DNA of 44,438 nt, taken from the NCBI GenBank assembly GCA_017695095.1, contig JADILW010000062.1:1-44438 (forward strand). The letters are read 5' to 3'. Origin of the DNA: Candidatus Cryptobacteroides avistercoris. Its GTDB lineage: Bacteria; Bacteroidota; Bacteroidia; Bacteroidales; UBA932. This document shows positions 18,644 through 44,063 of the stretch, piece after piece. Below the pieces are notes generated by a model that did not search any database, had not been told where the DNA came from, and saw only the letters and a list, made by a program, of their open reading frames with translations. The position numbers were made by a program, and so were the translations under genes. Within the stretch, counting starts at the first letter, position 1. Each line of letters opens with the position of its first letter.

Positions 18644-21073
18644 TTAAATGTTTGCTATGCTCATAATGTCCGCGAACACTCCCGCGGCGGTCACGTCGGC
18701 GCCCGCTCCGTAGCCCTGGATCAGCATGGGGTGGCGGTTGTAGCGCTCGGTGGTCAGGCGTATGATGTTGTTGGAGCCGTCCAGCACGTAGAAGGAGTGG
18801 CTGCTGTCCACCTCCTGCAGGCCGACCGAACATCTGCCGTGGTCCATCACGGCCACGAACCTGAGGCGCTTGTGCTCACGCTCGAGAATCTGCCTGCGCC
18901 TCTCGAATTCGGCGTCGAGTCCGGGCAGCTTCCGCCAGAACTCTTCCATCGGGCAGCGGAAGAGTTCGTCCGGAATGAAGAGCTTCGCCTCCACGTCTTC
19001 GAGGTTCACCTCGTAGCCGGCCTCCCGCGAGAGAATCACGAGCTTGCGCATCACGTCCTTGCCGGAAAGGTCTATCCTGGGGTCAGGTTCGGAGAAGCCC
19101 TGTTCCTGGGCCATGCGCACCGCGCGGCTGAAAGGCACCTCGGCCGAGATTGTGTTGAAGATGAAGTTCAGCGTGCCGCTGAGCACCGCCTCCAGCCGGA
19201 GTATCCTGTCGCCGCTGTTGCACAGGTCGTTGATGGTGTTGATTATCGGAAGCCCGGCGCCCACGTTGGTCTCGAACAAGTATTTCACGCTGTGGCGCAG
19301 CGCGGTGTCCTTGAGCCTGCGGTAGACGGGGTAGTCGGAAGAGGCCGCCACCTTGTTGGCCGCGACCACCGAAATGCTATGCTTGAAGAAGTCCTCGTAG
19401 AGCGCGGCAATTTCCTCGCTGGCGGTGCAGTCCACGAACACGGAGTTGAAGATGTTCATGCCCGTCACCTCGTCGCGCAGAGCCGCGGGCGTGATTTCCT
19501 TTCCGGAGGCCAGGGCTTCGCGCCAGCAGCGCAGGTCGATGCCGTCGCGGTCGAAGACCGCACGGGTGCTCCTCGCGATACCGACCACGTTGATCTTGAG
19601 ATTCCTCTCCTTCATCAGCCTCTCGCGCTGCGAGGCGAGCTGCTCGAGCAGCTTTCCGCCCACTGTGCCGACTCCGCACACGAAGAGGTTCAGCTCCTGG
19701 TACTCCGAGAGGAAGAAGCTGTCGTGAATCACGTTTAGCGCCTTCCGGAGGTTCTTCCGGTTGACAATGAAGGAAATGTTGCTCTCCGACGAGCCTTGGG
19801 CGCACGCGATGACGCTGATGCCGTTGCGGCCCAGTGTGCCGAAGAGTTTTCCGGCTATGCCGGCATGGTATTTCATGTTTTCGCCGACCACCGCCACCGC
19901 GGCCAGCTCGTATTCCACCTGCACGGGGAGAATCGCCCCGCTTTCGATCTCGTGGGCGAATTCACGGTCGATCACCTCGGCCGCGGGGACAGCGTCGCGC
20001 CGGCTCACACCTATGGTGATTCCGGTTTCCGAAGCCGACTGGCTCACGAGGAAGGCGCTTATGTTCTCTTCCGCAAGCACCTTGAAGATGCGGTTGTCGA
20101 TGCCGACTATGCCGACCAGCGAAGTGCCCGAGAGGGTGATGAGGCAGATGTCGTCTATGGACGAGATGCCCTTGATGAGCCTGTCGTCGCGGCGACATTC
20201 CCGCTTCACCGCGGTGCCGGGGAAGCCGGGGTTGAAGGTGTTCTTTATCAGGATGGGGATGCCCTTGGCGCAGACTGGGTACAGGGTGGGGGGATAGATC
20301 ACCTTCGCTCCGAAGTTGCAGAGCTCCATGGCCTCGGCATAGCTCATCTCCTCGATTACGTAGGAAGTCTTGATGATTCTGGGGTCGGCGGTCATGAAGC
20401 CGTCCACGTCCGTCCATATTTCTAGCTGCTCCGCGTCCAGCGCAGCGGCGATCAGGCTGGCGCTGTAGTCTGAGCCTCCGCGGCCGAGATTGGTGATGTC
20501 GCCGGTGGAGCTGTCGCGCGCGATGAAGCCGGGGACGACCGCCACTGCGGCGCCGAAATCCGCGAAAGCTTCGCGGATGAGCCTCGATGTGTTCTCCGTG
20601 TCCGCCACGTTCTCGCCGCGCTGGCGCACGGTGCGCATGAAGCTCAGGGAGTCGTACAGAGCGGATGAAGGTATCGCTGCGCTCACTATCAGTGCCGACA
20701 TGCGCTCTCCGAAGCTCACGACCTCGTCAAGGGTCTTGGCGGGCAGCACCTGGAGCAGCAGGATGCCCTCGCAGATGCTCAGGAGCCTGTCCAGCATGAT
20801 GCCCAGTTCGGTCTCCACCTCAGCCCTGCGCTCCGCGGGCACGACTTCCGAACATACGGAGAAATGCCGTCCGCGCATCGCGGCGATCTCGTCGCGGAAG
20901 GCCGGGTCACCCTCCTCGGCGAGCCGCGCCGAGCGGATGAGCTGGTCGGTGACGCCCGAAAGGGCGGAGACCACGACTATCGGCGCTTCAGGCCGCGATG
21001 TGACTATTTCCTTGACCTTGAGTATGCTTTCGGGCGTACCGACGGACGTGCCGCCGAACTTGAGTACTTTCAT
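18644..21073 (-). CDS. thrA: Bifunctional aspartokinase / homoserine dehydrogenase
   Basis: This 809-residue protein has the usual ThrA length. The kinase half begins [20 protein letters not shown], carries [14 protein letters not shown] and [16 protein letters not shown], and is followed by tandem ACT domains (about residues 310-455; [30 protein letters not shown]). The homoserine dehydrogenase half starts at about 465 with [18 protein letters not shown] and contains [15 protein letters not shown] and LSGTLNFIF. It supplies steps 1 and 3 of homoserine synthesis, and asd behind it supplies step 2. Allosteric control by threonine is typical of the family. A second kinase, lysC, is encoded at 37110. 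Confidence 0.95.
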
Positions 21074-21099
21074 CTTGTCTTTCCGGGCTTTTGGGATGC

Positions 21100-21130
21100 C
21101 AAAAGTAGAGAAATTATCGCTTTCTTCAAA
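21100..21130 (-). promoter_or_regulatory. thrA-asd promoter (-33 TTTG, 19-nt spacer, -7 TACTTTTG)
   Basis: On the minus strand, TTTG at 21130-21127 and TACTTTTG at 21107-21100 are separated by 19 nt, a very good match to the Bacteroidota promoter model. The thrA ATG follows 26 nt after the -7 box. No leader peptide or attenuator was seen in the short leader. Confidence 0.65.
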
Positions 21131-21201
21131 AGAAAAATTCGGCAACTATTTGCTTTTTCGCCGTAAAACCCGAACTTTATAAGCCGTAAGTTGTTTGTAG
21201 C

Positions 21202-23034
21202 ATGAAGTTGAGAAGTAGTGTAACCACCGAAGGCCGCCGCATGGCGGGAGCGAGAGCTCTCTGGCGGGCCGCCGGAATGAAGGAGGGGCAATTCGGTAAA
21301 CCTGTGATAGCCATAGCGAATTCCTTTACGCAGTTCGTCCCGGGACATACCCATCTGCACGATGCCGGACAGATCGTCCGGCAGGAGATCGAGCGCCTCG
21401 GCTGCTATGCCGCCGAGTTCAACGTCATCGCCGTGGACGACGGAATCGCCATGGGCCATGACGGGATGCTCTATTCGCTGCCCTCGAGAGACCTGATCGC
21501 CGACAGCGTCGAGTATATGGTCAACGCCCACAAGGCCGACGCTCTCGTGTGCATCAGCAACTGCGACAAGATCACCCCGGGAATGCTTATGGCGGCGATG
21601 AGGCTCGACATTCCGACCGTGTTCGTGTCGGGCGGCCCCATGGAGGCGGGAGTCAGAGGAGAGTCGAGGCTGGACCTGATAGACGCGATGGTCATGTCGG
21701 CCGATTCCGAAGCCTCCGACGAGGAGGTCGCCGGAATCGAAGCCTGCGCCTGCCCCGGCTGCGGCAGCTGCTCGGGAATGTTCACCGCCAACTCCATGAA
21801 CTGCCTGGCCGAGGCCATAGGGCTCGCCCTGCCCGGAAACGGGACGGTGCTGGCCACCCACGTGCAGCGCCGCGAGCTCTTCCTGAAGGCGGCGAGGCTC
21901 ATAGTCAGGAACGCATTCAAATATTACCGCGACGACGACGCCTCGGTGCTGCCCCGCAGCATCGCCACCCGTCAGGCGTTTCTCAACGCCATGTCGCTCG
22001 ACATAGCCATGGGCGGCTCCACCAACACTGTCCTCCACCTGCTCGCCGTGGCTTCGGAGGCCGGAGCCGACTTCAGCATGTCCGACATCGATTCCCTGTC
22101 GCGCCGGGTGCCCTGCATCTGCAAGGTGGCGCCCAACACCGCGCGCTACCACATTCAGGACGTCGGCCGGGCCGGCGGGGTCGTGGCCATCATGGCCGAA
22201 CTCGCCCGGGCTGGGCTGGTCGACACCTCCGTCCTCAGAGTCGACGGCATGACCCTCGGGGAGGAGATAGCCGCCTACGACATAAACGGAGCGGAGCCCT
22301 GCGAGGACGCGCTGAAGATATATTCGAGCGCCCCTGCCGGGAAATTCAGCACTGAGCTGGCTTCCCAGGACTGCAGCTGGCCTGAACTGGACAGGGACAG
22401 GGCCGCCGGATGCATACGCGACGTCGCCCACGCATATACTACCGACGGAGGCCTGGCCGTGCTCTCCGGCAACCTTGCCCCCGACGGCTGCATAGTCAAG
22501 ACCGCCGGAGTCAGCGAGGACATCTTCCGTTTCAGCGGTCCGGCCAGGGTGTTCGAATCCCAGGAGGAGGCGTGTGGGGGCATACTGGGCGGCCGCGTCC
22601 GTCCCGGCGACGTCGTGGTGATAGCCTATGAGGGGCCTAAGGGCGGACCGGGAATGCAGGAAATGCTCTACCCGACTTCATATTTGAAGTCCATGCACAT
22701 GGGAAGCAGCTGCGCCCTGCTCACCGACGGAAGGTTCAGCGGCGGCACCTCGGGGCTGAGCATAGGGCATGTGTCGCCCGAAGCCGCGTCTGGCGGAACG
22801 ATAGCGCTCGTTCGCGACGGCGACATCATAGACATAGACATCCCGTCGCGCAGCATCTCGCTGAGGGTGTCGGACGAGGAGCTTGAGGCCCGGCGCGCGG
22901 AGGAGAAGGACAGAGGCGTGCGGGCGTTCACGCCACATGACCGCGACCGGAAGGTTTCCCGCAGCCTGAAAGCGTACGCTTCCATGGTGAGCAGCGCGGA
23001 CAAGGGGGCGGTCAGGATAATAAGGGAGGACTGA
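21202..23034 (+). CDS. ilvD: Dihydroxy-acid dehydratase
   Basis: This 610-residue protein is of E. coli IlvD type, with [60 protein letters not shown] and [24 protein letters not shown], which include the iron-sulfur ligands. The C-terminal region has [24 protein letters not shown]. It dehydrates dihydroxy-isovalerate and dihydroxy-methylvalerate in valine/leucine and isoleucine synthesis. It is the first gene of the twelve-gene operon that runs to metX. No leader peptide was found upstream, and its promoter was not convincingly located (TAAGTTGT at 21187 is weak). Confidence 0.96.
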
Positions 23035-23036
23035 GA

Positions 23037-24761
23037 ATGAAGAAAAGGATGACAGGAGCGGAGATTCTGCTCGAATCTCTGATAGCTGAAGGCGTGGACA
23101 CGCTGTTCGGCTATCCGGGCGGGCAGATACTGACGGTCTACGACAAGCTGTACGATTATTCCGACAGGCTCAACCACGTGCTGGTCCGCCACGAACAGGG
23201 GGCGATTCACGCCGCCCAGGGCTATGCGCGCGCCACTTCGCGTCCCGGGGTGGTGATGGTGACTTCCGGTCCGGGCGCGACCAACGTGATCACCGGAGTC
23301 GCCGACTCGATGATAGATTCCACTCCGGTGATAGTGATCGCCGGACAGGTGGGGACCGCCCTGCTGGGCAGCGACGCCTTCCAGGAGACCGACGTCGTTG
23401 GTATGACCCGCCCCATCGACAAATGGACCTTCCAGATACGCAGGGCGGAGGATGTCGCCCCCGCAGTGGCCAAGGCCTTCCACATAGCCGCAACCGGGCG
23501 TCCCGGTCCTGTAGTGCTGGACTTCACGCGCGACGCGCAGGTGGGTGAGGCGGAATTCGAATACCGGAAATGCAGCTCGATGCGCAGCTATGTGCCGGAG
23601 AAGGAGATCTCCGTGGAGGCTGTGGAGACGGCGGCGAAGCTCATCGACGAAGCCGAGAGGCCGCTCGTGGTCTATGGCCAGGGCGTCCTGCTTTCGCATG
23701 CCGAGAAACAGCTGCAGGACTTCCTTAAGAAAGGAGGCATCCCGGCGGCGTCGACCCTGCTCGGCCTGAGCGCCCTGCCGTCCGATTTCCCGTACTATCT
23801 GGGGATGGCGGGGATGCACGGCAACATAGCCGCCAACATGATGACCCAGCGCTGCGACGTCCTGGTCGCGGTCGGAATGCGCTTCGACGACAGAGTGACC
23901 GGCAAGGTCTCGGAATACGCCAGGCAGGCAAAGGTCATCCATATCGACATCGACGAGACGGAAATCGGAAAGATCATCCCCGTGGAGGTGGGAATAGCCG
24001 GCGATGCCGCCAAGGTGCTCGAAATGCTCACCGCACGCATCAGGTTCGCCTTCCATGACGAGTGGAGGCTGACGGCGCGCGGCTACTTCGAGGTAGAGGA
24101 CAGGGAGGTCATGGCTCCGGAACTCCGCCCAGGCGCGGGGCCGCTGAACATGGGCGAGGTAGTGGCGAAGGTCTCCGAACTCTCCGGCGGCGACGCGATA
24201 GTAGTCACCGACGTGGGCCAGAACCAGATGAGTTCGGCGAGATATTCGCGCTTCACGCGCAGCCGCTCCTTCATCAGCTCCGGCGGACTGGGGACCATGG
24301 GCTTCGGGCTGCCTGCTGCGATAGGGGCGAAGCTCGGAAGACCCGACAGGCAGGTCTGTCTCTTCGTGGGTGACGGCGGCCTTCAGATGACCATCCAGGA
24401 GCTCGGCACGATAATGCAGACCGGAGCGGCGGTCAAGATAGTGCTGCTCGACAACAACTGGCTGGGCAACGTCCGCCAGTGGCAGGAACTCTTCTACGAC
24501 GAGCGCTATTCCCAGACCAGGATGATGAATCCCGACTATTCGAAGATCGCCGAAGCCTACGGCATAGCCTGCCGGACAGTGGAGCGCAGGGAGGAGCTGG
24601 ACGATGCCGTGCGCAAGATGCTGGACTCCCCGCAGGCCTTCATCCTCGACGCGCATATCCGCGAGCAGGGCATGGTCTATCCCATGATACCGGCCGGACG
24701 CCGCGTCGACGAAATCATGTTGAACAAGGGCAAATGGTTTGAAGAAAATGGACAGAGCTAG
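23037..24761 (+). CDS. ilvB: Acetolactate synthase, catalytic (large) subunit
   Basis: This 574-residue thiamine diphosphate enzyme starts RMTGAEILLESLIAEGVDTLFGYPGG. The catalytic glutamate is in VRHEQGAIHAAQGYARAT. Further segments are TSGPGATNVITGVADSMIDSTP, QETDVVGMTRPIDKW and the ThDP/metal motif GDGGLQMTIQELGTIMQTGAAVKIVLLDNN. It condenses two pyruvates to acetolactate, or pyruvate with 2-oxobutyrate to acetohydroxybutyrate. It begins 2 nt after ilvD and overlaps ilvN, so the subunits are translationally coupled. Confidence 0.96.
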   Translation: MKKRMTGAEILLESLIAEGVDTLFGYPGGQILTVYDKLYDYSDRLNHVLVRHEQGAIHAAQGYARATSRPGVVMVTSGPGATNVITGVADSMIDSTPVIVIAGQVGTALLGSDAFQETDVVGMTRPIDKWTFQIRRAEDVAPAVAKAFHIAATGRPGPVVLDFTRDAQVGEAEFEYRKCSSMRSYVPEKEISVEAVETAAKLIDEAERPLVVYGQGVLLSHAEKQLQDFLKKGGIPAASTLLGLSALPSDFPYYLGMAGMHGNIAANMMTQRCDVLVAVGMRFDDRVTGKVSEYARQAKVIHIDIDETEIGKIIPVEVGIAGDAAKVLEMLTARIRFAFHDEWRLTARGYFEVEDREVMAPELRPGAGPLNMGEVVAKVSELSGGDAIVVTDVGQNQMSSARYSRFTRSRSFISSGGLGTMGFGLPAAIGAKLGRPDRQVCLFVGDGGLQMTIQELGTIMQTGAAVKIVLLDNNWLGNVRQWQELFYDERYSQTRMMNPDYSKIAEAYGIACRTVERREELDDAVRKMLDSPQAFILDAHIREQGMVYPMIPAGRRVDEIMLNKGKWFEENGQS

Positions 24762-25068
24762 CAGGATGCACATAATAACCGTCTATTCGGAGAATCAGAT
24801 AGGGCTGCTCTGCTCCATCTCCGGAATATTCGCGCGCAGGAACATCGACATCGACAGCCTGACGGTCTTCCCGTCGGAGTTCCCTGGCATATACCGCTTC
24901 ACCTTCAGGCTCTCGGTCAACGAAGAGACGGCTGAGCGCCTGGTCAGGATAATCGAGAAGAACGTCGAAGTGCTCAAAGCCTTCTGCTTCAGGAGCAACG
25001 AGGTGTGGGACAGCGAGCATGAGACGGTAGCCGCATATTTGAGAGAACATATGAACAATAATCAATAG
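24748..25068 (+). CDS. ilvN: Acetolactate synthase, short regulatory subunit (ACT domain)
   Basis: This 106-residue protein carries one ACT domain: MHIITVYSENQIGLLCSISGIFARRNIDIDSLTVFPSE...IYRFTF. Family small subunits bind valine (or other branched-chain amino acids) and confer feedback inhibition on IlvB. The length resembles E. coli IlvN (about 96 residues), whereas many Bacteroidota and IlvH-type subunits are 160-185 residues with a second domain that is missing here. The ATG at 24748 overlaps the ilvB end by 14 nt; an in-frame TTG at 24739 and an ATG at 24766 are alternatives. No remnant of a lost second domain lies before ilvC. Confidence 0.88.
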   Translation: MDRASRMHIITVYSENQIGLLCSISGIFARRNIDIDSLTVFPSEFPGIYRFTFRLSVNEETAERLVRIIEKNVEVLKAFCFRSNEVWDSEHETVAAYLREHMNNNQ

Positions 25069-25072
25069 CACT

Positions 25073-26116
25073 ATGGCAAAGATGAATTTCGGCGGAGTTG
25101 AGGAGAATGTCGTCACCCGCAGTGAATTTACGTTGGACAAGGCACGCGAAGTGCTCAAGAACGAGGTGGTGGCCATCATAGGCTACGGAATCCAGGGCCC
25201 CGGACAGGCTCTCAACCTCAGGGACAACGGCATCAACGTGATCGTCGGCCAGCGCAGGAGCAAGACCTACGATAAGGCGGTAGCCGACGGATGGGTGCCC
25301 GGAGAGACGCTTTTCAGCATCGAAGAGGCCTGCGAGAGGGCCACCGTGATCGAGTTCCTGCTCTCCGACGCCGCCCAGATCGAGCAGTGGCCGGTGGTCA
25401 AGAAACATCTCACCGCGGGCAAGGCCCTCTATTTCTCGCACGGCTTCGGCATCACTTTCAGCGACCGCACCGGCATCGTGCCTCCCGAGGATGTCGACGT
25501 GATCATGGTCGCCCCCAAGGGCTCAGGAACCTCTGTGCGCAGGCTCTTCCTGCAGGGCAGGGGCATCAACTCCTCCTACGCCGTGTACCAGGACGCCACC
25601 GGCAGGGCGCTCGAGCGCACGCTGGCCCTCGGCATCGCCATCGGCTCCGGCTATCTCTTCGAGACCGACTTCAAGCGCGAGGTCTACTCTGACCTCACGG
25701 GGGAGCGCGGCACGCTGATGGGAGCCATCCAGGGCATGCTGCTCGCCCAGTTCGAAACCCTCCGCGAGCACGGCCACACCCCCTCCGAAGCCTTCAACGA
25801 GACCGTGGAGGAGCTCACCCAGTCGCTGATGCCGCTCTTCGCCGAGAAAGGCATGGACTGGATGTACGCCAACTGTTCCACCACAGCGCAGCGCGGCGCC
25901 CTCGACTGGATGGGCCGCTTCCACGACGCGACCAAGCCGGTGTTCGAGCAGCTCTACGAGGAGGTTGCCAGCGGCCGTGAGGCCCAGCGTTCCATAGACT
26001 CCAACTCGAAGCCCGACTACCGCGAAGGTCTCGAAAAGGAACTCAAGGAACTGCGCGAAAGCGAGCTCTGGCGCACCGGCGCCGCCGTCCGTGAACTCCG
26101 ACCCGAAAACAAGTAG
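25073..26116 (+). CDS. ilvC: Ketol-acid reductoisomerase
   Basis: This 347-residue protein is of the type found in Bacteroidota. The NADPH-binding loop is IIGYGIQGPGQALNLRDNG, followed by GQRRSKTYDKA, whose Arg and Ser residues would contact the coenzyme phosphate. Catalytic-domain motifs are SHGFGITF, MVAPKGSGTSVRRLF, ETDFKREVYSDLTGERGTLMG (metal-binding acids), and the C-terminal ANCSTTAQRGALDW. It isomerises and reduces acetolactate or acetohydroxybutyrate to the dihydroxy acid used by IlvD. It begins 4 nt after ilvN. Confidence 0.96.
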   Translation: MAKMNFGGVEENVVTRSEFTLDKAREVLKNEVVAIIGYGIQGPGQALNLRDNGINVIVGQRRSKTYDKAVADGWVPGETLFSIEEACERATVIEFLLSDAAQIEQWPVVKKHLTAGKALYFSHGFGITFSDRTGIVPPEDVDVIMVAPKGSGTSVRRLFLQGRGINSSYAVYQDATGRALERTLALGIAIGSGYLFETDFKREVYSDLTGERGTLMGAIQGMLLAQFETLREHGHTPSEAFNETVEELTQSLMPLFAEKGMDWMYANCSTTAQRGALDWMGRFHDATKPVFEQLYEEVASGREAQRSIDSNSKPDYREGLEKELKELRESELWRTGAAVRELRPENK

Positions 26117-26122
26117 AGTCAG

Positions 26123-27622
26123 ATGGACGGCAACAGAGTCTACATTTTCGACACGACCCTCAGGGACGGAGAGCAGGTGCCGGGATGCCAGCTCAACACC
26201 ATTGAGAAGATCCAGGTCGCCAAGGCGCTTGAAAGTCTCGGGGTCGACGTGATCGAGGCCGGATTCCCGGTGTCGAGCCCCGGCGACTTCAATTCGGTGG
26301 TCGAGATATCCAAGGCAGTGACCTGGCCCACGGTCTGCGCCCTCACGCGGGCGGTGCAGAAGGATATCGACGTGGCCGCCGAAGCCCTGCACCACGCGAA
26401 GAAGAAGCGCATCCACACTGGAATAGGCACCTCCGACCAGCACATACGCTACAAGTTCAACTCGAACCGCGAGGAGATAATCGAACGGGCCGTCAGGGCG
26501 GTCAAATACGCACGACAGCTCGTGGATGAAGTGGAGTTCTACGCCGAGGACGCCGGGCGCACCGACAACGAGTACCTCGCCCGGGTGGTCGAGGCGGTCA
26601 TCAAGGCCGGGGCCGGCATAGTGAACATCCCCGACACCACCGGCTACTGCCTGCCCGGGGAGTATGCCGCGAAGATACGCTATCTGATGGAGCATGTCGA
26701 AGGCATTGAGAACGTGATTCTCTCGACCCACTGCCACGACGACCTCGGACTCGCGGCGGCCAACACCGTGGCCGGACTGTCGGCCGGTGCGCGGCAGTGC
26801 GAGGTGACGGTCAACGGAGTCGGGGAGAGGGCCGGCAACACGGCTCTCGAGGAGGTGGCCATGATACTGCGCTGCCGCCATGACCTCGGCCTGCAGACCA
26901 ACGTCAACACGACCAAGATCTCCTCGGTCAGCCGTCTTGTGTCCGGCCTGATGAACATGCCGGTACAGGCGAACAAGGCCATAGTCGGACGCAACGCCTT
27001 CGCCCACTCCTCCGGCATCCACCAGGACGGAGTGCTGAAGGACAGCTCGACCTACGAGATCATGTGCCCTCAGGACGTGGGGGTCGACGACAACAACATA
27101 GTCCTGACCGCGCGCAGCGGCCACGCGGCTCTCAAGTACAGGCTCGAGGTGCTCGGCATCTCGATGAGCCCCGAAAGGCTGGACAGCTTCTATCAGGAGT
27201 TCCTCAGGCTCGCCGACCAGAAGAAGCAGGTCAGCGACGACGACCTGCTGGTGCTCGCCGGAGCCCACAGGCAGGAGACGGCTCACGTGCGCCTGGACTA
27301 TCTCCAGGTCACGAGCGGACGCGGCCTGAAGCCGGTGGCCAGCATAGGCCTGGACATTTCAGGGGAGAAATTCGAGGCCGCCGCGAGCGGCAACGGTCCG
27401 GTCGACGCCGCGATCAACGCGCTCAAGCTCATCATACGCCGTCAGATGACCATCAAGGAGTTCACCATACAGAACATCACCAAGGGCTCCGATGACGTCG
27501 GCAAGGTGCACATGCAGGTCGAGCACGACGGCAGGATATACTATGGCTTCGGCGCCGACACCGACATCGTCAGCGCTTCGGTCGAGGCATACATTGACTG
27601 CATCAACAAATTCAAGAACTGA
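26123..27622 (+). CDS. leuA: 2-isopropylmalate synthase
   Basis: This 499-residue protein has the HMGL-like TIM barrel: [48 protein letters not shown] (metal His-x-His) and [16 protein letters not shown]. The C-terminal regulatory (LeuA dimer) domain spans about residues 375-499 ([19 protein letters not shown]). It condenses acetyl-CoA with 2-oxoisovalerate, the committed leucine step, and is normally inhibited by leucine. FPVSSPGDF and the PGCQLN segment distinguish it from the paralogue three genes downstream. Its TGA overlaps the leuC ATG. Confidence 0.94.
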
Positions 27623-28989
27623 TGAACACTCTTTTTGACAAGATATGGGACTCGCACGTGGTCTCGGCAATCGACGGCGGCCCCCAGCAGCTCTACATCG
27701 ACAGGCTCTACTGCCATGAGGTCACGAGCCCCCAGGCGTTCGACGGCTTGAGAGCCAGGGGGATCGGCTGCCTGCGGCCCTCGAAGGTAGTATGCATACC
27801 TGACCACAACATCCCCACCCACGATCAGGACAAGCCAATAGCCGACCCCGTGTCGGCGGCGCAGGTCGAGACCCTCAGGCGCAACGCCTCCGAGTTCGGC
27901 CTCACGTACTACGGCATGATGGATCCCGGCAACGGCATAGTGCATGTCGTAGGTCCGGAGAAGGGACTCTCGCTGCCCGGCATGACCATAGTCTGCGGCG
28001 ACTCCCACACTTCCACCCACGGCGCCGTCGGGGCGGTGGCCTTCGGAATCGGCACCAGCGAGGTGGAGATGGCCCTCGCATCGCAGTGCATACTCCAGCA
28101 GAAGCCTAAATCCATGCGCATCAGCATCGGAGGCAGGCTCGGCAGGGGCGTGACCGCCAAGGACATGGCTCTCTTCCTGATGATGAAGCTCAGCACTTCC
28201 GGAGCCACGGGATATTTTGTGGAATATGCCGGCCAGGCAGTCAGCTCGCTCTCGATGGAGGGCCGCCTGACCCTCTGCAACCTCTCGATCGAGATGGGCG
28301 CGAGGGGCGGTTTCATCGCACCCGACGAGACCACGTTCGAATACCTCAAGGGCAGGGAATACTCCCCTAAGGGCGAAGACTGGGACAGGGCGGTGGAATA
28401 CTGGAAGACCCTGCGCAGCGGCGACGACGCCGTGTTCGACAGGGAGCTCAGCTTCGACGCCTCCGAGATCTCGCCCATGATCACCTACGGCACGAACCCC
28501 GGCATGGGCATGCCCATAGACGGCACCATACCCTCCGACGCCAGTCCCAAGGCTCTGGCCTATATGGGACTCGAGGCCGGCCGCCCTCTGCTCGGCCACA
28601 AGGTCGACTACGTCTTCCTCGGAGCCTGCACCAACGGACGCATTGAGGATTTCCGCGCCTTCGCCTCATTGGTCAGGGGCAGGAGGAAGGCCGACGGGGT
28701 CACCGCCTGGCTGGTACCGGGCTCCTGGGCCGTGAAACGGCAAATCGAGGAGGAGGGCCTTGACAGAGTGCTCGGCGAGGCGGGATTCGAGGTGCGCCAG
28801 CCCGGCTGCTCCGCCTGCCTCGCGATGAACGACGACAAGATTCCGGAAGGCAAGTATGCCGTGTCCACGAGCAACCGTAATTTCGAGGGCCGCCAGGGCC
28901 CAGGTTCGAGGACTCTGCTTGCGAGCCCCCTTACAGCAGCGGCAGCAGCCGTGACAGGAAGAGTAACCGATCCAAGAGAATTGCTATGA
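27622..28989 (+). CDS. leuC: 3-isopropylmalate dehydratase, large subunit
   Basis: This 455-residue aconitase-fold protein has [55 protein letters not shown] and [15 protein letters not shown], which supply the three cysteine ligands of the 4Fe-4S cluster. [28 protein letters not shown] is the usual C-terminus. It isomerises 2-isopropylmalate and, with the citramalate synthase encoded downstream, probably also citramalate. Overlaps of 1 nt with leuA and 4 nt with leuD couple the genes. Confidence 0.95.
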
Positions 28990-29585
28990 AACAGAAATTC
29001 GACATAATTGAAAGCACCTGCGTGCCCCTGCCTCTGGAGAACGTGGACACGGACCAGATAATCCCCGCACGCTTCCTCAAGGCCACCACCCGCGACGAGA
29101 AGTTCTTCGGAGAGAATCTCTTCCGCGACTGGAGATATCTGCCCGACGGCAGCCCGAACCCCGGTTTCGTGCTCAACGACCCCCGCTACGGCGGCTGCGT
29201 GCTCGTGGCCGGCAAGAATTTCGGTTCGGGAAGCAGCCGCGAGCATGCTGCCTGGGCCCTGGCCGGATATGGATTCAGAGCGGTGATCTCCAGCTTCTTC
29301 GCCGACATCCACAGGAACAACGAGCTGAATAATTTCGTGCTTCCCGTGACCGTGTCCGAAGCCTTCCTGGCCGAACTTTTCGACTGCATCGCCGCCGACC
29401 CCGCGACCAGGGTCAGGATAGACGTGCATGAACTCACGGTAACCAACCTTGCGAGCGGGAGGAGCGAGAAGTTCGAGATGAACGCCTACAAGCAGTACTG
29501 CTTTCTCAACGCGATGGACGACATAGACTATCTTCTCGCCCACAAGGACAGAATCGAGGAATACGAAAGGAATTCAGCCTTATGA
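28986..29585 (+). CDS. leuD: 3-isopropylmalate dehydratase, small subunit
   Basis: This 199-residue aconitase swivel-domain protein has [49 protein letters not shown] and [15 protein letters not shown]. It is the partner of LeuC, and its length is normal for the bacterial subunit. It overlaps leuC and the following cimA gene by 4 nt each. Confidence 0.95.
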
Positions 29586-31111
29586 TAGAGATAATGGACA
29601 CCACCCTCAGGGACGGCGAGCAGACTGCCGGGGTCTCGTTCAACGCGAGCGAGAAACTTGCCATAGCCCAGCTGCTCATTGAGGAGCTCCACGTCGACAG
29701 GGTCGAAGCGGCATCCGCCAGGGTCTCGAAAGGAGAGTCCGAGGGATTCCGCCGCATCTGCTCGTGGGCGGCCTCCTGCGGCTGTCTCGACAGGATAGAG
29801 GCACTCGGCTTCGTGGACGGGGGTGTCTCGGTCGACTGGATAGCCGGCAACGGGGGCAAGGTGGTCAACGTACTCTCCAAGGGGTCTCTACGCCACCTGA
29901 GCGGGCAGCTCCGCAAGACCCCGGAGCAGCATCTCGCCGATATCGCGGCGGTGCTGGAGCTTGCAGTCGCCAGGGGCATGACGGCCAACATCTATTTGGA
30001 GGACTGGTCCAACGGCATAGTCGATTCGCCCGACTACGTGCGCTTCCTGCTCGACGGGCTGAGCCGTCTGCCGGTCAGGAGGGTGATGCTCCCCGACACT
30101 TTGGGTATCTTCAATCCCTGGCAGGTCGAGAAATACTGCGGGGAAATGCTTTCTCTCTACCCGGATCTGCATTTCGACTTCCACGCCCACAACGACTACG
30201 GGCTTGCGGTGGCCAACACTCTCGCCGCCGCGAAAGCCGGCGTCCACGGCGTGCACACCACCGTGAACGGCCTCGGTGAAAGAGCGGGCAACGCGCCTCT
30301 CGCGAGCGTCACCGCCGGTCTGAACGACCAGGTCGGACGCCGTGTCGCCCTGGATGAAAGCCGGCTGACCCACGTGTGCAGATATGTGGAGAGCATCTCA
30401 GCTGTCAGGATACCGGGCAACGAGCCCGTGGTGGGGGAGAACGTGTTCACCCAGAGCAGCGGGGTGCATGCCGACGGCGATAAGAAGGACAACCTCTACG
30501 CCAACCGCCTGCTTCCCCAGAGATTCGGCCGCATCAGGACATACGCCCTGGGCAAGGTCAGCGGCAAGGCCAACATCATCAACAATCTCGACAAGCTAGG
30601 AATCAAGCTCACCGAGCAGCAGGTGAAGCTGGTGACCGCAAGGGTCGTGGAACTGGGCGACAAGAAGGAGACGGTGACCGCCGAGGACCTGCCTTTCATC
30701 GTGGCCGACGTCCTCAAGAGCGCCGGACCGGCGACTGCGGACAACATCCATATCGTGAACTACTCGCTCCAGCTTGCCAGAGGCATGCGCCCGGTGGCCA
30801 TAGTCAAGGTGAGCATCCACGGAAAGGAGTATGAGGCGTCATCGCCCGGCGACGGCCAGTACGACGCCTTCATGAAGGCCCTGTGGATCATCTACGCCAG
30901 GCTGGGCAAGGAGCATCCGGTGCTCACGGACTATCAGGTCAGCATTCCTCCGGGAGGAAAGACCGACGCCCTCGTGGCCACCACGATTTCGTGGAAGAAC
31001 GGGGACAGCGAATTCAAGACAAGGGGCATAGACTCCGACCAGACGGAAGCCGCCATCAAGGCTACCGTCAAGATGCTGAACATTATAGAGAACATAAACA
31101 TCAAGAACTGA
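29582..31111 (+). CDS. cimA: (R)-citramalate synthase, Leptospira type
   Basis: This 509-residue LeuA-family protein has [65 protein letters not shown] and a C-terminal regulatory domain ending [14 protein letters not shown]...IDSDQTEAA. It resembles the characterised Leptospira citramalate synthase far more than the LeuA encoded upstream. Residues aligned to its pyruvate pocket (Leu81, Leu104 and Tyr144 there, from memory) are L75, L98 and Y138 here, with R10-D11 and E140 also kept. It condenses acetyl-CoA with pyruvate to make 2-oxobutyrate via LeuCD and LeuB, bypassing threonine for isoleucine. Generic annotation as 2-isopropylmalate synthase would be misleading. Confidence 0.87.
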
Positions 31112-31112
31112 A

Positions 31113-32183
31113 ATGAAACTCAGGATAGCACAGCTTCCGGGGGACGGAATCGGCCCCGAGGTCGTGGCCCAGGCGGCGAAGGCCATAGACGCCGTCTGCG
31201 CAAGATTCGGACATGAAGTCGAGTACAGATACGCAAGCGTGGGCGCCTGCGCGATCGACAGATACGGCGACGCCTTTCCCGAGGAGACCTACCGCATCTG
31301 CCTCGAAAGCGACGCGGTCCTCTTCGGAGCGGTCGGCGACCCCCGCTACGACAACGACCCCACCGCGAGGGTCAGGCCGGAGCAGGGTCTGCTCGCGATG
31401 CGCAAGAAGCTCGGGCTCTACGCAAACCTGAGGCCGGTGGAGACTTTCCCCGCCCTGATTGACAAGTCGCCTCTGAAGAGGGAGCTTGTCGAGGGGGCCG
31501 ACTTCGTGTGCGTGCGTGAGCTCACCGGAGGAATGTATTTCGGCGAGAAAGGCCGGCGCGACGACGGCGACACCGCCTACGACACCAATGTCTACAGCCG
31601 CTTCGAGATCGAGCGCATCCTCAGGCAGGCGTACTCGCTCGCCCGGCTCAGGCGGCGCCATCTGACCGTGGTCGACAAGGCCAACGTCCTCGAGTCCTCC
31701 CGTCTGTGGAGGCAGGTCGCCCAGGAGATGTCGGCCGAGTATCCTGACGTGCAGACCGACTACATGTTCGTGGACAACGCCGCCATGAAACTGATCACGA
31801 ACCCCAGGTTCTTCGACGTGCTGGTCACCGAGAACACCTTCGGCGACATCCTGACCGACGAGGCGAGCTGCATCTCCGGTTCGATGGGTCTGCTCGCGTC
31901 CGCGTCGATAGGCGAGCGCACCGGCGTCTATGAACCGATCCACGGCTCATACCCCCAGGCCGCGGGCAAGGACATCGCCAACCCGCTGGCGACGATACTT
32001 TCGGCCGCGATGATGTTCGAGACAGCCTTCGGGCTCAAGGAGGAGGGCGCGGCGCTGCGCAACGCCGTCAGGGCGAGCATCGAGGCGGGCTTCGTCACCG
32101 AGGACCTCGCCGACGGAGCCGTAGCCCGCAGGACTTCGGAGGTGGGCGACTGGGTGGCCGCAAGGATATCGGAAGAGAAATAA
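31113..32183 (+). CDS. leuB: 3-isopropylmalate dehydrogenase
   Basis: This 356-residue decarboxylating dehydrogenase has [31 protein letters not shown], the substrate arginines in [11 protein letters not shown] and [52 protein letters not shown], and [23 protein letters not shown] (NAD binding). It acts on 3-isopropylmalate and presumably on methylmalate from the citramalate route. It starts 1 nt after cimA. Confidence 0.96.
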
Positions 32184-39662: not shown

Positions 39663-41591
39663 CTACAATTTCCACCAAGTCTCCAGGTCCGAGGGCATGC
39701 GCCAGTCGCCGCGAGGCGACAGCGACACCAATCCCACCTTGGGCCCGTCGGGCAGGCAGGAACGCTTGAACTGCTGGGCGAAGAAGCGCTTCATGAAGGT
39801 GGAGAGCCAGTGGCTCACGGTCTCCTCGTCATAACGCCCGGCGAACGCCTTGAGCGCCAGGAAAAGGATCTTCCGGGGGTTGTAGCCGCAGCGGAAGAAA
39901 TTGTACAGGAAGAAGTCGTGAAGTTCGTAGGGCCCGACCAGGTCCTCGGTCTTCTGGGCTATGCTTCCGTCGTCGGCCGCGGGCACGAGTTCCGGGCTGA
40001 TCGGAGTGTCGGCGATGTCGAGCAGCACGTCGCGCAGTTCGGAAGTGTCGCCGAAGCGGTTGTTCGCCGCCCAGACCACCAGCGTTCGCACAAGGGTCTT
40101 GGGTACGCTCACGTTGACCCCGTACATCGACATGTGGTCGCCGTTGTAGGTGCACCAGCCCAGGGCGAGTTCCGAGAGGTCGCCGGTTCCGACGACTATT
40201 CCGCCCTCCTTGCCGGCTATGTCCATGAGCAGCTGCGTGCGTTCGCGCGCCTGGCTGTTCTCGTAGGTCAGGTCGTGAACGTCCTCGTCCTGTCCGATGT
40301 CGGCGAAATGCTGGCGCACCGCCGGGAGTATGGATATTTCGCGGAAGTCAGTGCCCAGCAGCTCCATTAGCCTGGTCGAATTGTCGTGCGTGCGCCCGCT
40401 GGTGCCGAAGCCGGGCATGGTCACGGTTACGATGTTCCTGCGGGGCAGTCCGAGCTCGTCGAAGGCCAGCACGGCCACCAGCAGGGCGAGGGTGGAGTCC
40501 AGGCCGCCGGAGACGCCTATCACCGCCTTGCGGCAGCGGATGTGCTCCAGACGCGAACTCAGGCCGGCAACCTGGGATGAGAGTATCTCCCGGCAGCGCG
40601 CTGCGAGAGCTTCAGGGTCGCCCTGGGGTACGAAGGGGTGGGGTTCGACATGCCGCAGCAGCGAGGTGCAGAAGTCGGTGAGGGCCGGCTTGCCGGCGTC
40701 TCTTACCTCATATTCGGGGATGCTGCCCGCATAGCCGTAGCAGTGTTCCCTGGTGCGGAGGGTCTCCATCCTCTCGATGTCCACGTCGCCGCAGAGCAGG
40801 CTGGAGCCGCGCTGGAAACGCCGGCTTTCGGCTATCAGGGAGCCGTTTTCATATATCAGTGAGGAGCCTGCCCAGACAAGGTCCTGGGTGGATTCCCCGT
40901 AGCCGCAGGAGCAGTAGAGATAGGCTGCGAAAAGGCGGGACGAGGTGGCGGACACGAGCATCTTCCTGTATTCATGCTTCATGAGCACTTCGTTGCTGGC
41001 GGAGAGGTTGATGATCAGCTGTGCGCCGGCCAGAGCGGCCCATGAGCTCTGGGGTACGGGAGACCAGAGGTCCTGGCAGATCTCCACCCCGAACAGGGCG
41101 TTTCCCACCCTGAAGAGCTGACGGACGCCGAAAGGTATGTCCTTCTGCCCGGCGAAGTCCACGCCGACGCAGCGCCCGGGCAGCTTGTCGGCGGATTCGA
41201 ACCAGCGCGGCTCGTAGAACTCCCCGTTGCCGGCGAGGTAGGTCTTTGGAACGATTCCGATGATCTTCCCGCCCCTCGAGACCACGGCGCAGTTGTACAG
41301 CCGGCCGCGCCAGCGCATCGGTGTGCCGAACACCAGCACGCAGTCCATTCCTGCCGACATCCTCACGATGTCGGCGCAACTCTGCTCGGCCTTGTCGACG
41401 AGTGTCTGCTGGCCGAAGAGGTCGGCGCAGGTGTAGCCGGTGACGCTGAGCTCGGGGAAGGCAACTATCGAGACTCCGCGTATGACCGCGTCGTTCACTA
41501 GGTTCAGTATCTCCCTGGTGTTGGATGCAGGGTCGGCCACATGCACCCTGGGCATCGCCGCCGCCACTCTCAGAAAGCCGTAATTCTCCAT
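39663..41591 (-). CDS. nadE: Glutamine-dependent NAD+ synthetase
   Basis: This 642-residue protein has an N-terminal nitrilase-type glutaminase domain (about 1-290) with triad E47 (AFPELSVTGYTC), K116 (GIVPKTYLAG) and C172 (FGVEICQDLW). The C-terminal synthetase domain has the PP-loop GVSGGLDSTLALLV, followed by VTMPGFGTSGRTHDNS, VVGTGDLSELALGWCTYNGDHMSMYGVN and the C-terminal FKRSCLPDGPKVGLVSLSPRGDWRMPSD. It amidates nicotinic acid adenine dinucleotide to NAD+ with ammonia channelled from glutamine. Gene start MENYGFLRVAAAMPRV fits the first nitrilase strand. Divergent from the glutamine synthetase unit. Confidence 0.95.
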   Translation of the reverse strand: MENYGFLRVAAAMPRVHVADPASNTREILNLVNDAVIRGVSIVAFPELSVTGYTCADLFGQQTLVDKAEQSCADIVRMSAGMDCVLVFGTPMRWRGRLYNCAVVSRGGKIIGIVPKTYLAGNGEFYEPRWFESADKLPGRCVGVDFAGQKDIPFGVRQLFRVGNALFGVEICQDLWSPVPQSSWAALAGAQLIINLSASNEVLMKHEYRKMLVSATSSRLFAAYLYCSCGYGESTQDLVWAGSSLIYENGSLIAESRRFQRGSSLLCGDVDIERMETLRTREHCYGYAGSIPEYEVRDAGKPALTDFCTSLLRHVEPHPFVPQGDPEALAARCREILSSQVAGLSSRLEHIRCRKAVIGVSGGLDSTLALLVAVLAFDELGLPRRNIVTVTMPGFGTSGRTHDNSTRLMELLGTDFREISILPAVRQHFADIGQDEDVHDLTYENSQARERTQLLMDIAGKEGGIVVGTGDLSELALGWCTYNGDHMSMYGVNVSVPKTLVRTLVVWAANNRFGDTSELRDVLLDIADTPISPELVPAADDGSIAQKTEDLVGPYELHDFFLYNFFRCGYNPRKILFLALKAFAGRYDEETVSHWLSTFMKRFFAQQFKRSCLPDGPKVGLVSLSPRGDWRMPSDLETWWKL

Positions 41592-41660: not shown

Positions 41661-41689
41661 TTGCAAGAAAAAAATTTTTTCTAAATTTG
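41661..41689 (+). promoter_or_regulatory. glnN leader promoter (-33 TTG, 18-nt spacer, -7 TAAATTTG)
   Basis: TTG at 41661-41663 and the exact -7 box TAAATTTG at 41682-41689 bracket a near-palindrome of A7T6 (AAGAAAAAAATTTTTTCT, 41665-41682). The start of transcription would be near 41696, giving a leader of about 190 nt before glutamine synthetase. That leader contains the Gln-rich ORF and the terminator. Confidence 0.6.
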
Positions 41690-41709: not shown

Positions 41710-41790
41710 ATGTACAGCATGAATGTATACAGCCAGCAGCAGATGCAGCAGCAGGGCCAGTCACAGGTTCTGCGTCTCTTTGCGTGCTGA
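41710..41790 (+). CDS. Gln-rich 26-residue leader peptide upstream of glutamine synthetase
   Basis: The ORF encodes MYSMNVYSQQQMQQQGQSQ followed by VLRLFAC. Eight of 26 codons are CAG (Gln), at codons 9-11, 13-15, 17 and 19. It begins 20 nt after an exact promoter box and ends 98 nt before the glutamine synthetase gene, with a terminator in between. A run of codons for the end product of the downstream enzyme is the hallmark of translation-coupled attenuation. Translation of this ORF is inferred. No Shine-Dalgarno sequence is present, as usual in this phylum. Confidence 0.65.
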   Translation: MYSMNVYSQQQMQQQGQSQVLRLFAC

Positions 41791-41865
41791 CCAGCCGGCA
41801 CACATGTCAGGCAGACATTCATCTTGTTGATATTCAGGCTGGCCCGGTACGGACCGGCCTTTTTT
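41754..41865 (+). promoter_or_regulatory. Attenuator: alternative antiterminator and terminator structures before glnN
   Basis: Terminator: GGCCCGGT (41841-41848) pairs with ACCGGCC (41853-41859) with one bulged C and loop ACGG, followed by six T (41860-41865). Antiterminator A: 41754-41762 (GGGCCAGTC, inside the Gln-rich ORF) pairs with 41837-41845 with one G-U pair. Antiterminator B: CCAGCC (41791-41796, directly after the leader stop) pairs with GGCTGG (41837-41842). Both consume the 5' arm of the terminator. A ribosome stalled on early Gln codons leaves A free to form (read-through). A ribosome that reaches the stop codon covers B and has displaced A, so the terminator forms. Confidence 0.6.
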
Positions 41866-41888: not shown

Positions 41889-44063
41889 ATGGATAGATTT
41901 GACCTCGTTAAGGAATCCTTCGAAAAGAAGGCGGTGAAAGTGGAGAGTCCTTCGCGCAAGACCTCCGATTATTTCGGCGAACTTGTGTTCGACCGCACCA
42001 AGATGCACAAGTATCTCGACGCCGGAAGCCTCAAGGCCCTGCTGGAGTGTATCGACAACGGCATCCCCCTCGACCGCGAGACCGCCGACGGAGTTGCGCG
42101 CGGAATGAAGGAGTGGGCTATGGAGAACGGCGTAACCCACGTCACCCACTGGTTCCAGCCCCTCACCGAAGGCACGGCCGAAAAGCATGACTCCCTGATC
42201 GACTACGACGGCAAGGGCGGAGTCATCGAGACCTTCAGCGGCAAGGACCTCGTTCAGCAGGAACCCGACGCCTCGTCTTTCCCCAGCGGCGGAATCCGCG
42301 CCACCTTCGAGGCCAGAGGCTACACCGCCTGGGACCCCACCTCGCCCGTCTACATCCAGGACGACACGCTCTGCATACCCACCGTGTTCATCTCCTACAC
42401 CGGCGAGGCCCTCGACTACAAGACGCCCCTGAAACGCGCCCTCAAGGCCGTGAGCGACGCCGCACTGCCAATCTGCAGGCTCTTCGACCCCTCCGTGGGC
42501 AAGGTTTACTCCTACCTCGGATGGGAACAGGAATACTTCCTCGTGGACGAGTCTCTCTATTCGGCGCGCCCCGACCTCATGATCACCGGACGCACGCTGA
42601 TGGGCCACAATTCTTCCAAGAACCAGCAGCTCGACGACCACTACTTCGGCTCGATCCCGACCCGCGTGGCCGCCTTCATGAGAGAGCTTGAGATAGCCGG
42701 ACACCGCCTCGGAATACCTCTCAAGACCCGCCACAACGAAGTCGCCCCCAACCAGTTCGAACTCGCTCCCATCTACGGGGAGACCAATCTGTCCAACGAC
42801 CAGAACCAGATAGTGATGAACCTGATGAACAAGATCGCCCGCAAGCACGGCTTCGTGGTGCTCTTCCACGAGAAGCCTTTCGAGGGCGTGAACGGTTCGG
42901 GCAAGCACAACAACTGGTCGCTCGGCACCGACACCGGAGTCCAGCTCTTCGCCCCCGGCAAGGACCCCAACGGCAACCTGCAGTTCATCGCCTTCTTCGT
43001 CAACGTGCTCGCCGCGGTGCAGAAGCACAACGCCCTGCTCAAGGCGTCCATAGCTTCGGCCACCAACGCCTACCGCCTCGGCGCCAATGAAGCACCCCCT
43101 GCAATCGTGTCGGCCTTCCTCGGCACCACTATGACCAACGTGCTGCGCAAATTGCTCGAGGTGCCTTCCGACACCCCCATCGAGATTTCCGGCAAGAAGG
43201 GGAAGAGCGTAGGCCTGATAGAGATTCCCGAGATCTTCGTCGACAACACCGACCGCAACAGGACTTCGCCTTTCGCGTTCACCGGCAATCGTTTCGAATT
43301 CAGAGCTGTCGGGTCAAGCGCAAACTGCGCAAGCGCCATGACGACGCTCAACGCTGCCGTGGCCGAGCAGCTCACCGTCTTCAAGGCCGCGGTCGACAAG
43401 GAGCTCGCAGCCGGCAAGCCGGTCAACGTGGCGGTGATGGACGCGCTCAAGCCCATAATCGCTTCGGTTATCGACGTGGTCTGCTTCGACGGCAACGGCT
43501 ACACCGAGGAATGGAAGAAGGAGGCGGAGCGCCGCGGGCTCGACGTGGAGACCAGCGTGCCCGAGATGATAAAGGATTTCGTGAAGCCGGAATCAATCAA
43601 ACTTTTCACCTCCACGGGCGTCTACACCGAGAAGGAGCTCGAGGCCCGCAACGAAGTGAAGTGGGAGACCTATTGCAAGAAGGTTCAGATCGAGTCCCGC
43701 GTGATGGTCAGGATGGCCACCAACCACATCATCCCCGCGGTGCTGGAGTACAAGACCAAGCTGCTCAAGGACATCGCCCTCACCAAGGAGATCTTCGGCG
43801 ACACCACCAGGTGCTCCTACGAACTCGACCTGCTCGGAAAGATCAACTCCTACGTGGAGGAGGTGCATCAGAAGGCCGCCGAGATGAAGGAGGCACGCAA
43901 GAACGCCAACGCCATCGAGGACATCTACAAGAAGGCCGTTGCATATCATGAGATTGCCGAGAGTCTTGCCGACCTGCGCAAGCCTATCGACAAGCTCGAG
44001 GACATCGTCGACAACAAGATGTGGCCGCTTCCGAAATACCGCGAACTGCTGTTCATCAGCTAG
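41889..44063 (+). CDS. glnN: Glutamine synthetase type III (GSIII)
   Basis: This 724-residue protein matches the roughly 725-730-residue GSIII family known from Bacteroides rather than the 450-470-residue GSI. Recognisable segments are SDYFGELVFDRTKMHKYL, VTHVTHWFQPLTEGTAEKHDS, PTSPVYIQDDTLCIPTVFISYTGEALDYKTPL, YLGWEQEYFLVD, RHNEVAPNQFELAPIYGETNLSNDQN, FHEKPFEGVNGSGKHNNWSLGTD and RTSPFAFTGNRFEFRAVGSSANCA. It makes glutamine from glutamate, ammonia and ATP as a large cytosolic oligomer. The gene is preceded by a long leader with a Gln-rich ORF and attenuator. It is followed 20 nt later by a strong terminator. Confidence 0.96.
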   Translation: MDRFDLVKESFEKKAVKVESPSRKTSDYFGELVFDRTKMHKYLDAGSLKALLECIDNGIPLDRETADGVARGMKEWAMENGVTHVTHWFQPLTEGTAEKHDSLIDYDGKGGVIETFSGKDLVQQEPDASSFPSGGIRATFEARGYTAWDPTSPVYIQDDTLCIPTVFISYTGEALDYKTPLKRALKAVSDAALPICRLFDPSVGKVYSYLGWEQEYFLVDESLYSARPDLMITGRTLMGHNSSKNQQLDDHYFGSIPTRVAAFMRELEIAGHRLGIPLKTRHNEVAPNQFELAPIYGETNLSNDQNQIVMNLMNKIARKHGFVVLFHEKPFEGVNGSGKHNNWSLGTDTGVQLFAPGKDPNGNLQFIAFFVNVLAAVQKHNALLKASIASATNAYRLGANEAPPAIVSAFLGTTMTNVLRKLLEVPSDTPIEISGKKGKSVGLIEIPEIFVDNTDRNRTSPFAFTGNRFEFRAVGSSANCASAMTTLNAAVAEQLTVFKAAVDKELAAGKPVNVAVMDALKPIIASVIDVVCFDGNGYTEEWKKEAERRGLDVETSVPEMIKDFVKPESIKLFTSTGVYTEKELEARNEVKWETYCKKVQIESRVMVRMATNHIIPAVLEYKTKLLKDIALTKEIFGDTTRCSYELDLLGKINSYVEEVHQKAAEMKEARKNANAIEDIYKKAVAYHEIAESLADLRKPIDKLEDIVDNKMWPLPKYRELLFIS

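Follow-up and report, generated by a model that had tools for sequence, protein, structure and literature searches.

The window analysed here is a stretch of 44,438 nucleotides from Candidatus Cryptobacteroides avistercoris. Its last part carries a gene for a type III glutamine synthetase (GSIII, glnN) preceded by a presumed promoter, a short Gln-rich ORF and an intrinsic terminator, the latter being located between the leader ORF and GSIII as the first structural gene (Table 1). The Pfam domain GSIII_N matches the encoded protein with 1e-74, and a terminator-like inverted repeat is found 3' of GSIII in this organism. All eight Gln residues of the leader are encoded by CAG (41734-41742, 41746-41754, 41758-41760, and 41764-41766), which is also the sole Gln codon used in the GSIII gene.

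Table 1. Features of the GSIII leader region in the window
Feature	Position	Strand	Remarks
Presumed Bacteroidota-type promoter	41661-41689	+	TTG (-33) at 41661-41663, TAAATTTG (-7) at 41682-41689; read from the sequence
Leader peptide ORF	41710-41790	+	26 codons, MYSMNVYSQQQMQQQGQSQVLRLFAC; homologous Gln/Asn-rich ORFs in relatives
Putative sensor region	41734-41766	+	Gln codons 9-11, 13-15, 17, 19
In-ORF complement of the terminator arm	41754-41762	+	GGGCCAGTC; counterpart in L002 only
Outer stem P0	41769-41815	+	UCUGC 41769-41773 / GCAGA 41811-41815; predicted by folding, covariation in relatives
Inner stem P1	41784-41801	+	GUGC 41784-41787 / GCAC 41798-41801; predicted by folding, covariation in relatives
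Candidate antiterminator segment	41791-41796	+	CCAGCC, abuts the leader stop codon; complementary to 41837-41842
Intrinsic terminator	41836-41865	+	AGGCTGGCCCG-GTA-CGGACCGGCCT and TTTTTT (41860-41865); covaries in relatives
Type III glutamine synthetase (GSIII, glnN)	41889-44063	+	724 aa; Pfam GSIII_N, Gln-synt_C-ter, Gln-synt_C

An earlier note on this DNA had described a promoter, an ORF of 26 codons, eight of them CAG, and a hairpin followed by six T ahead of GSIII. All three are present, and the coordinates of that note are correct throughout. The promoter is of the Bacteroidota type and was not picked up by a sigma-70 scan of the window; we assigned it by matching TTG and TAAATTTG to the Bacteroidota type (consensus TAnnTTTG). 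It is separated from the leader ORF by 20 bp, and boxes resembling the -7 element occur about 28-33 nt 5' of the start codon in most leaders of relatives. The hairpin of the terminator (41836-41860) has a predicted energy of -15.0 kcal/mol.

A gene for a glutamine-dependent NAD+ synthase (39663-41591, - strand) diverges from GSIII, the upstream region being common to both. Elsewhere in the window, a run of branched-chain amino-acid genes (21202-32183) includes two 2-isopropylmalate-synthase-like genes (26135-27607 and 29585-31081); when the 20900-21200 region preceding this run was inspected by eye, no leader peptide was found. In the genome of the window's organism, which is about 93% complete, neither glnK nor a close asnB was found.

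Leaders in related genomes and their amino-acid specificity

Among the 80 GSIII loci of the GTDB collection that are closest to the window's, about 26 have a Gln- or Gln/Asn-rich short ORF followed by a terminator. These loci are mostly from Cryptobacteroides and from unnamed rumen Bacteroidales, the remaining ones being labelled Prevotellaceae, Bacteroidaceae, Muribaculaceae, Porphyromonadaceae or Salinivirgaceae. A covariance model (R1) was built from nine leaders and searched in 200 genomes of the window's genus, and all of the best 25 loci are upstream of GSIII with such a leader. Directly after these 25, the leader MFLFNQQNNQNNNQNQQVLIASVYYSPVGNMM was found before asnB (L216) and the leader MKFSINNQNRKKQNQNQILQL before glnK-amtB (L217); matches of lower rank (L218-L220, L320-L324) are mostly ordinary terminators. 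Covariance-model matches obtained in 198 Bacteroidales genomes (about 1e-5 to 1e-8) likewise resemble ordinary terminators, and matches of this strength were not used for this reason. Altogether, about 50 leaders, found in Cryptobacteroides and further Bacteroidales, have a common layout; they are not all independent cases, as the two collections probably include genomes of the same species.

The earlier note had proposed a comparison of glnN leaders in relatives as a test, and the proposal withstood it: ORFs rich in Gln, or in Gln and Asn, are retained with varied sequence, together with the terminator and a complementary segment next to the stop codon. The reading frame is conserved as well: over 49 leaders, Q+N make up a fraction of 0.35 in the frame of the ORF, compared to 0.00 and 0.04 in the two alternative frames. 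Which codons are abundant depends on the target gene, with leaders being rich in Gln before GSIII, rich in Asn before asnB and purF-asnB, and mixed before glnK-amtB, so that the ORFs before GSIII and asnB are rich in codons for the product of the downstream gene. The median of N/(N+Q) is 0.30 in 31 GSIII leaders versus 0.67 in 11 asnB or purF-asnB leaders (Mann-Whitney p=2e-6), and four GSIII leaders (L035, L036, L058, L064) are rich in Asn instead of Gln. Within the genus, asnB genes that are outside longer operons often have an Asn-rich leader, such as MRNVNNINNYGIRINNNLDNAYMHIRR (L287) and MMKLNNINVNNSWINNFNSANCLVQ (L293), and a purF-asnB pair (L318) is preceded by MLTGMFYTFNNNNNNNQNLNNEVLRKSRV. 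While Gln is nearly always encoded by CAG, both AAT and AAC are used for Asn, which indicates that selection acts on the amino acid. As far as sequence comparison goes, the leader ORF and its specificity are established, and what is kept is the kind of amino acid, in agreement with the gene product.

In one locus (L311), the leader is followed in the same direction by GSIII, gltB, gltD, pyrG, a weakly matching glutamine-amidotransferase-like protein, glnK, amtB, and asnB, which, judging from spacing and direction, would form a single transcript. The protein encoded between pyrG and glnK (L311:10162-11904) has 581 aa and only weak matches to class-II glutamine amidotransferases.

The distribution of the leaders is patchy, since no convincing leader was found directly upstream of GSIII in 60 Bacteroidales upstream regions, nearly all of them from outside the leader-bearing group. 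Nor was a convincing leader found in upstream regions of glnK and asnB in other families. A nearly identical Asn-type leader is shared by all ten close GSIII copies (L373-L382) of one genus, which was reached via G018 and corresponds to the Salinivirgaceae loci; more distant GSIII copies of the same family are without a leader. The pattern suggests that leader and GSIII gene may have been transferred together between lineages. Seven loci with GSIII or asnB (L012, L032, L034, L037, L038, L042, L288) have retained the terminator and lack a Gln/Asn-rich ORF; losses, paralogues or assembly faults could account for them. In L037, the CCAGCC segment is retained and the leader MFLKDKTSSPAGE is devoid of Gln and Asn. 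On the contig of a Salinivirgaceae MAG, an Rfam match to Acido-Lenti-1 RNA was obtained (L058:878-923; 46.3 bits, above gathering).

A covarying hairpin and its complementarity to the terminator arm

Fold predictions place a hairpin across the 3' end of the leader ORF and the sequence just after it, with P0 as the outer and P1 as the inner stem. In the window, P0 has five pairs, and a short P1 encloses both the stop codon and CCAGCC. In 39 distinct leaders, 93.7% of the cells are paired for P1 (8 of 9 pairs with changes in both partners) and 78.8% for P0 (8 of 8 pairs); these counts lean towards the model, as P0, P1, and the terminator had been used to fit the alignment. None of 500 shuffles equalled this covariation, and pairing dropped to 29-48% when the stems were slid. 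The stability of the P0/P1 region is ordinary (mean z -0.55). The bases of P0 and P1 vary freely, and the constant part is confined to the segment that matches the terminator arm.

In the predicted folds, this segment is left in the apical region by P0/P1 rather than being paired in the manner of a protector (1:2) stem. An apical position of the motif CCAGYC is predicted for 35 of 48 leaders, compared to 23% of shuffled controls. Its pairing with the terminator arm, which was outside the fitted model, is found in 96.8% of the cells in 39 leaders, with little variation at these positions. Diverged matches between loop and arm are CCGGTC/GGCCGG (L004), CGGCCT/AGGCCG (L317), GTCGGT/ACCGAC (L287), and GTCGGC/GCCGGC (L293). 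Upon permutation, none of 2000 trials gave a match as good, and p=0.002 was obtained among ten diverged arms. The loop:arm complementarity is kept with covariation and represents a conserved pairing that would be exclusive of the terminator. Together with P0/P1 and the terminator, this complementarity is a result of the comparison itself.

Two complements of the terminator 5' arm had been pointed out in the earlier note, and both exist. The one next to the stop codon is conserved. The one within the ORF was rejected as an antiterminator, its counterpart being restricted to the closest relative (L002). The attenuation geometry proposed in the note is supported by the relatives; a plain 2:3 hairpin became less likely, the note having overlooked the covarying stems P0/P1. 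With CCAGCC in the apical region of these stems, the antiterminator is probably a pairing of the loop with the terminator.

The position of this segment relative to the ribosome was also evaluated. The antiterminator starts at a median of 2 nt past the first base of the stop codon. With the segment being sought within 24 nt of the stop, 98% of the leaders would have it covered by a ribosome that has arrived at the stop codon, and for 98% of the Q/N codons a ribosome stalled there would leave it uncovered. In nested minimum-energy folds of the window, the terminator always wins (-15 kcal/mol vs -10 for the six-pair antiterminator), so that antitermination would have to be kinetic or stabilised as a pseudoknot by stacking on P1. 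The terminator also forms in every case when a ribosome is masked, and nested folding thus does not separate the two states.

Attenuation model and alternatives

We consider it highly probable that the leader acts by ribosome-mediated transcription attenuation. The sensed signal would be glutamine, via charged tRNA-Gln (tRNA-Asn for the Asn leaders). Transcription would start about 15 nt 5' of the leader start codon, and the ribosome would for this reason trail RNA polymerase closely. With charged tRNA-Gln at hand, the ribosome would proceed to the stop codon, where its footprint would lie over CCAGCC and P1 would be opened. The terminator would then fold, ending transcription near 41865. When charged tRNA-Gln is scarce, the ribosome would stall in the Gln codons, allowing P1 (and P0, space permitting) to fold, with CCAGCC being displayed in the apical region. 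The displayed segment could pair with the emerging GGCUGG of the terminator arm, which would block the terminator and permit GSIII to be made. As the antiterminator would be covered at the stop codon and free upon a stall at Q/N codons, read-through is expected on stalling and termination on full translation. Points that speak against the model are the prevailing terminator in nested folds, the ordinary stability of P0/P1 and the short P1 of the window, the seven loci lacking a Gln/Asn-rich ORF, and the four Asn-rich leaders of GSIII.

P0/P1 are located 3' of the sensor codons and CCAGYC is apical, so that we favour a capture of the arm by the loop while P1 is folded. This pseudoknot form, in which P1 and the loop:arm pairing coexist, is advanced tentatively, at close to an even chance. 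If it holds, an untranslated leader would be read through by default, the reverse of the trp attenuator.

A serious alternative within the same explanation is a classical attenuator of the trp type with a plain nested antiterminator hairpin. P1 would then merely sequester or pause and would have to open for the pairing of CCAGYC, and untranslated RNA would terminate by default. Such a device would need an identical leader, terminator and complementary segment. A related case exists in the window's genus, where His-rich leaders with terminators are found upstream of hisG (L345-L358, e.g. L355 and L350; leaders such as MRKYNAYHHHHRV, that of L355, and MNIVVRTYFHHHHFLRNW). They share with the Gln/Asn leaders the lineage, the terminator and, as seen by eye, a match to the terminator arm close to the stop codon. 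They differ in having His codons and, again by eye, in a stem that encloses these, with its 5' arm ahead of the sensor codons, which is near to classical protector logic. In the Gln/Asn leaders, however, P0/P1 follow the Gln codons and are thus free to form beside a stalled ribosome, and the apical placement of CCAGYC exceeds that in shuffled controls. We regard the trp-type variant as possible, with a probability distinctly below even. The His leaders also indicate that attenuation by leader peptides is probably used more widely in this lineage.

The same parts could work with the opposite sign, a stall at Gln codons causing termination and full translation causing read-through. In Prevotella ruminicola, GSIII-2, gltBD, glnK, amtB, and asnB are up about 27-69-fold on ammonium versus the comparison condition, as given in the part of that report considered here (PMC5552732), and glutamine is possibly abundant on ammonium. 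The same response is equally expected, however, if peptides rather than ammonium supply Gln and Asn. A reversed sign is also at odds with an antiterminator that would be covered by the ribosome at the stop codon and free upon a Gln/Asn stall, and with the His leaders of the genus, in which the codon for the pathway product is abundant. We consider this reading improbable.

It is very improbable that the hairpin and its loop pairing represent the ligand pocket of a glutamine-binding riboswitch, with the Q-rich ORF being incidental. A hairpin with pseudoknot-like pairing next to a short ORF is reminiscent of the Gln-II (downstream-peptide) riboswitch. However, a search of the leader against Rfam yielded no family match, including the glutamine riboswitches and the T-box, the latter being rejected on this basis; the bases of P0/P1 are free to vary outside the segment matching the terminator arm; and the change from Gln to Asn codons follows the target gene. 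Finally, a chance CAG-repeat ORF next to an ordinary terminator has a negligible probability: since 2 of the 970 open frames of at least 20 codons in the window have 8 Gln within 20 codons, one sequence by itself is no more than a hint, but frame, amino-acid type, hairpin, and pairing are conserved across the relatives, by which chance is ruled out.

Relation to known attenuators and to nitrogen assimilation in Bacteroidales

The leaders share with the attenuators of amino-acid operons (trp, his, leu, ilv, phe, thr) a short ORF with many codons for the pathway product, an intrinsic terminator, and a mutually exclusive antiterminator by the leader stop codon. They differ in that Gln and Asn would be sensed, that the antiterminator would be displayed apically in a hairpin 3' of the sensor codons, and that the targets are GSIII and nitrogen-assimilation genes, for which such control was not found in the literature searched. 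With glutamine riboswitches (glnA and downstream-peptide types), they have in common that glutamine synthetase or nitrogen genes would be under control of the glutamine state; conserved aptamer-like bases are not found here, and the conserved feature is the amino-acid codons.

The earlier note was not aware of a described glutamine leader for GSIII. None was found in Rfam, and neither a Gln/Asn leader peptide nor a GSIII attenuator was found in the literature searched, mostly outside subscription journals, so that an earlier mention is possible. For Flavobacterium psychrophilum, also a member of the Bacteroidota, leader-peptide attenuation of amino-acid operons has been inferred from transcript data; the part of that report considered here names no Gln/Asn leader and no glutamine synthetase (PMC9723704). 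Small ORFs reminiscent of leader peptides have been reported for Bacteroides thetaiotaomicron (PMC7366714), and a broad survey of premature terminators mentions neither glutamine nor Bacteroidota (PMC2965389).

The regulation of ammonium assimilation in Bacteroidales has been poorly explained so far. The joint rise of the P. ruminicola genes on ammonium (PMC5552732) is not expected under control by nitrogen limitation. These data fit our model and do not prove it. If a leader is present in P. ruminicola as well, an attenuator sensing tRNA-Gln/Asn on this gene set would offer a direct and testable explanation; an Asn-rich leader is found in a related Prevotellaceae MAG (L036). We propose, with somewhat less than even confidence, that a Gln/Asn leader-peptide regulon may govern central nitrogen assimilation in gut Bacteroidales by means of a pseudoknot antiterminator attenuator. 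A tRNA-Gln/Asn-sensing attenuator would also bring Gln and Asn into the set of amino acids for which leader-peptide sensing is known, its codons shifting to suit the target gene.
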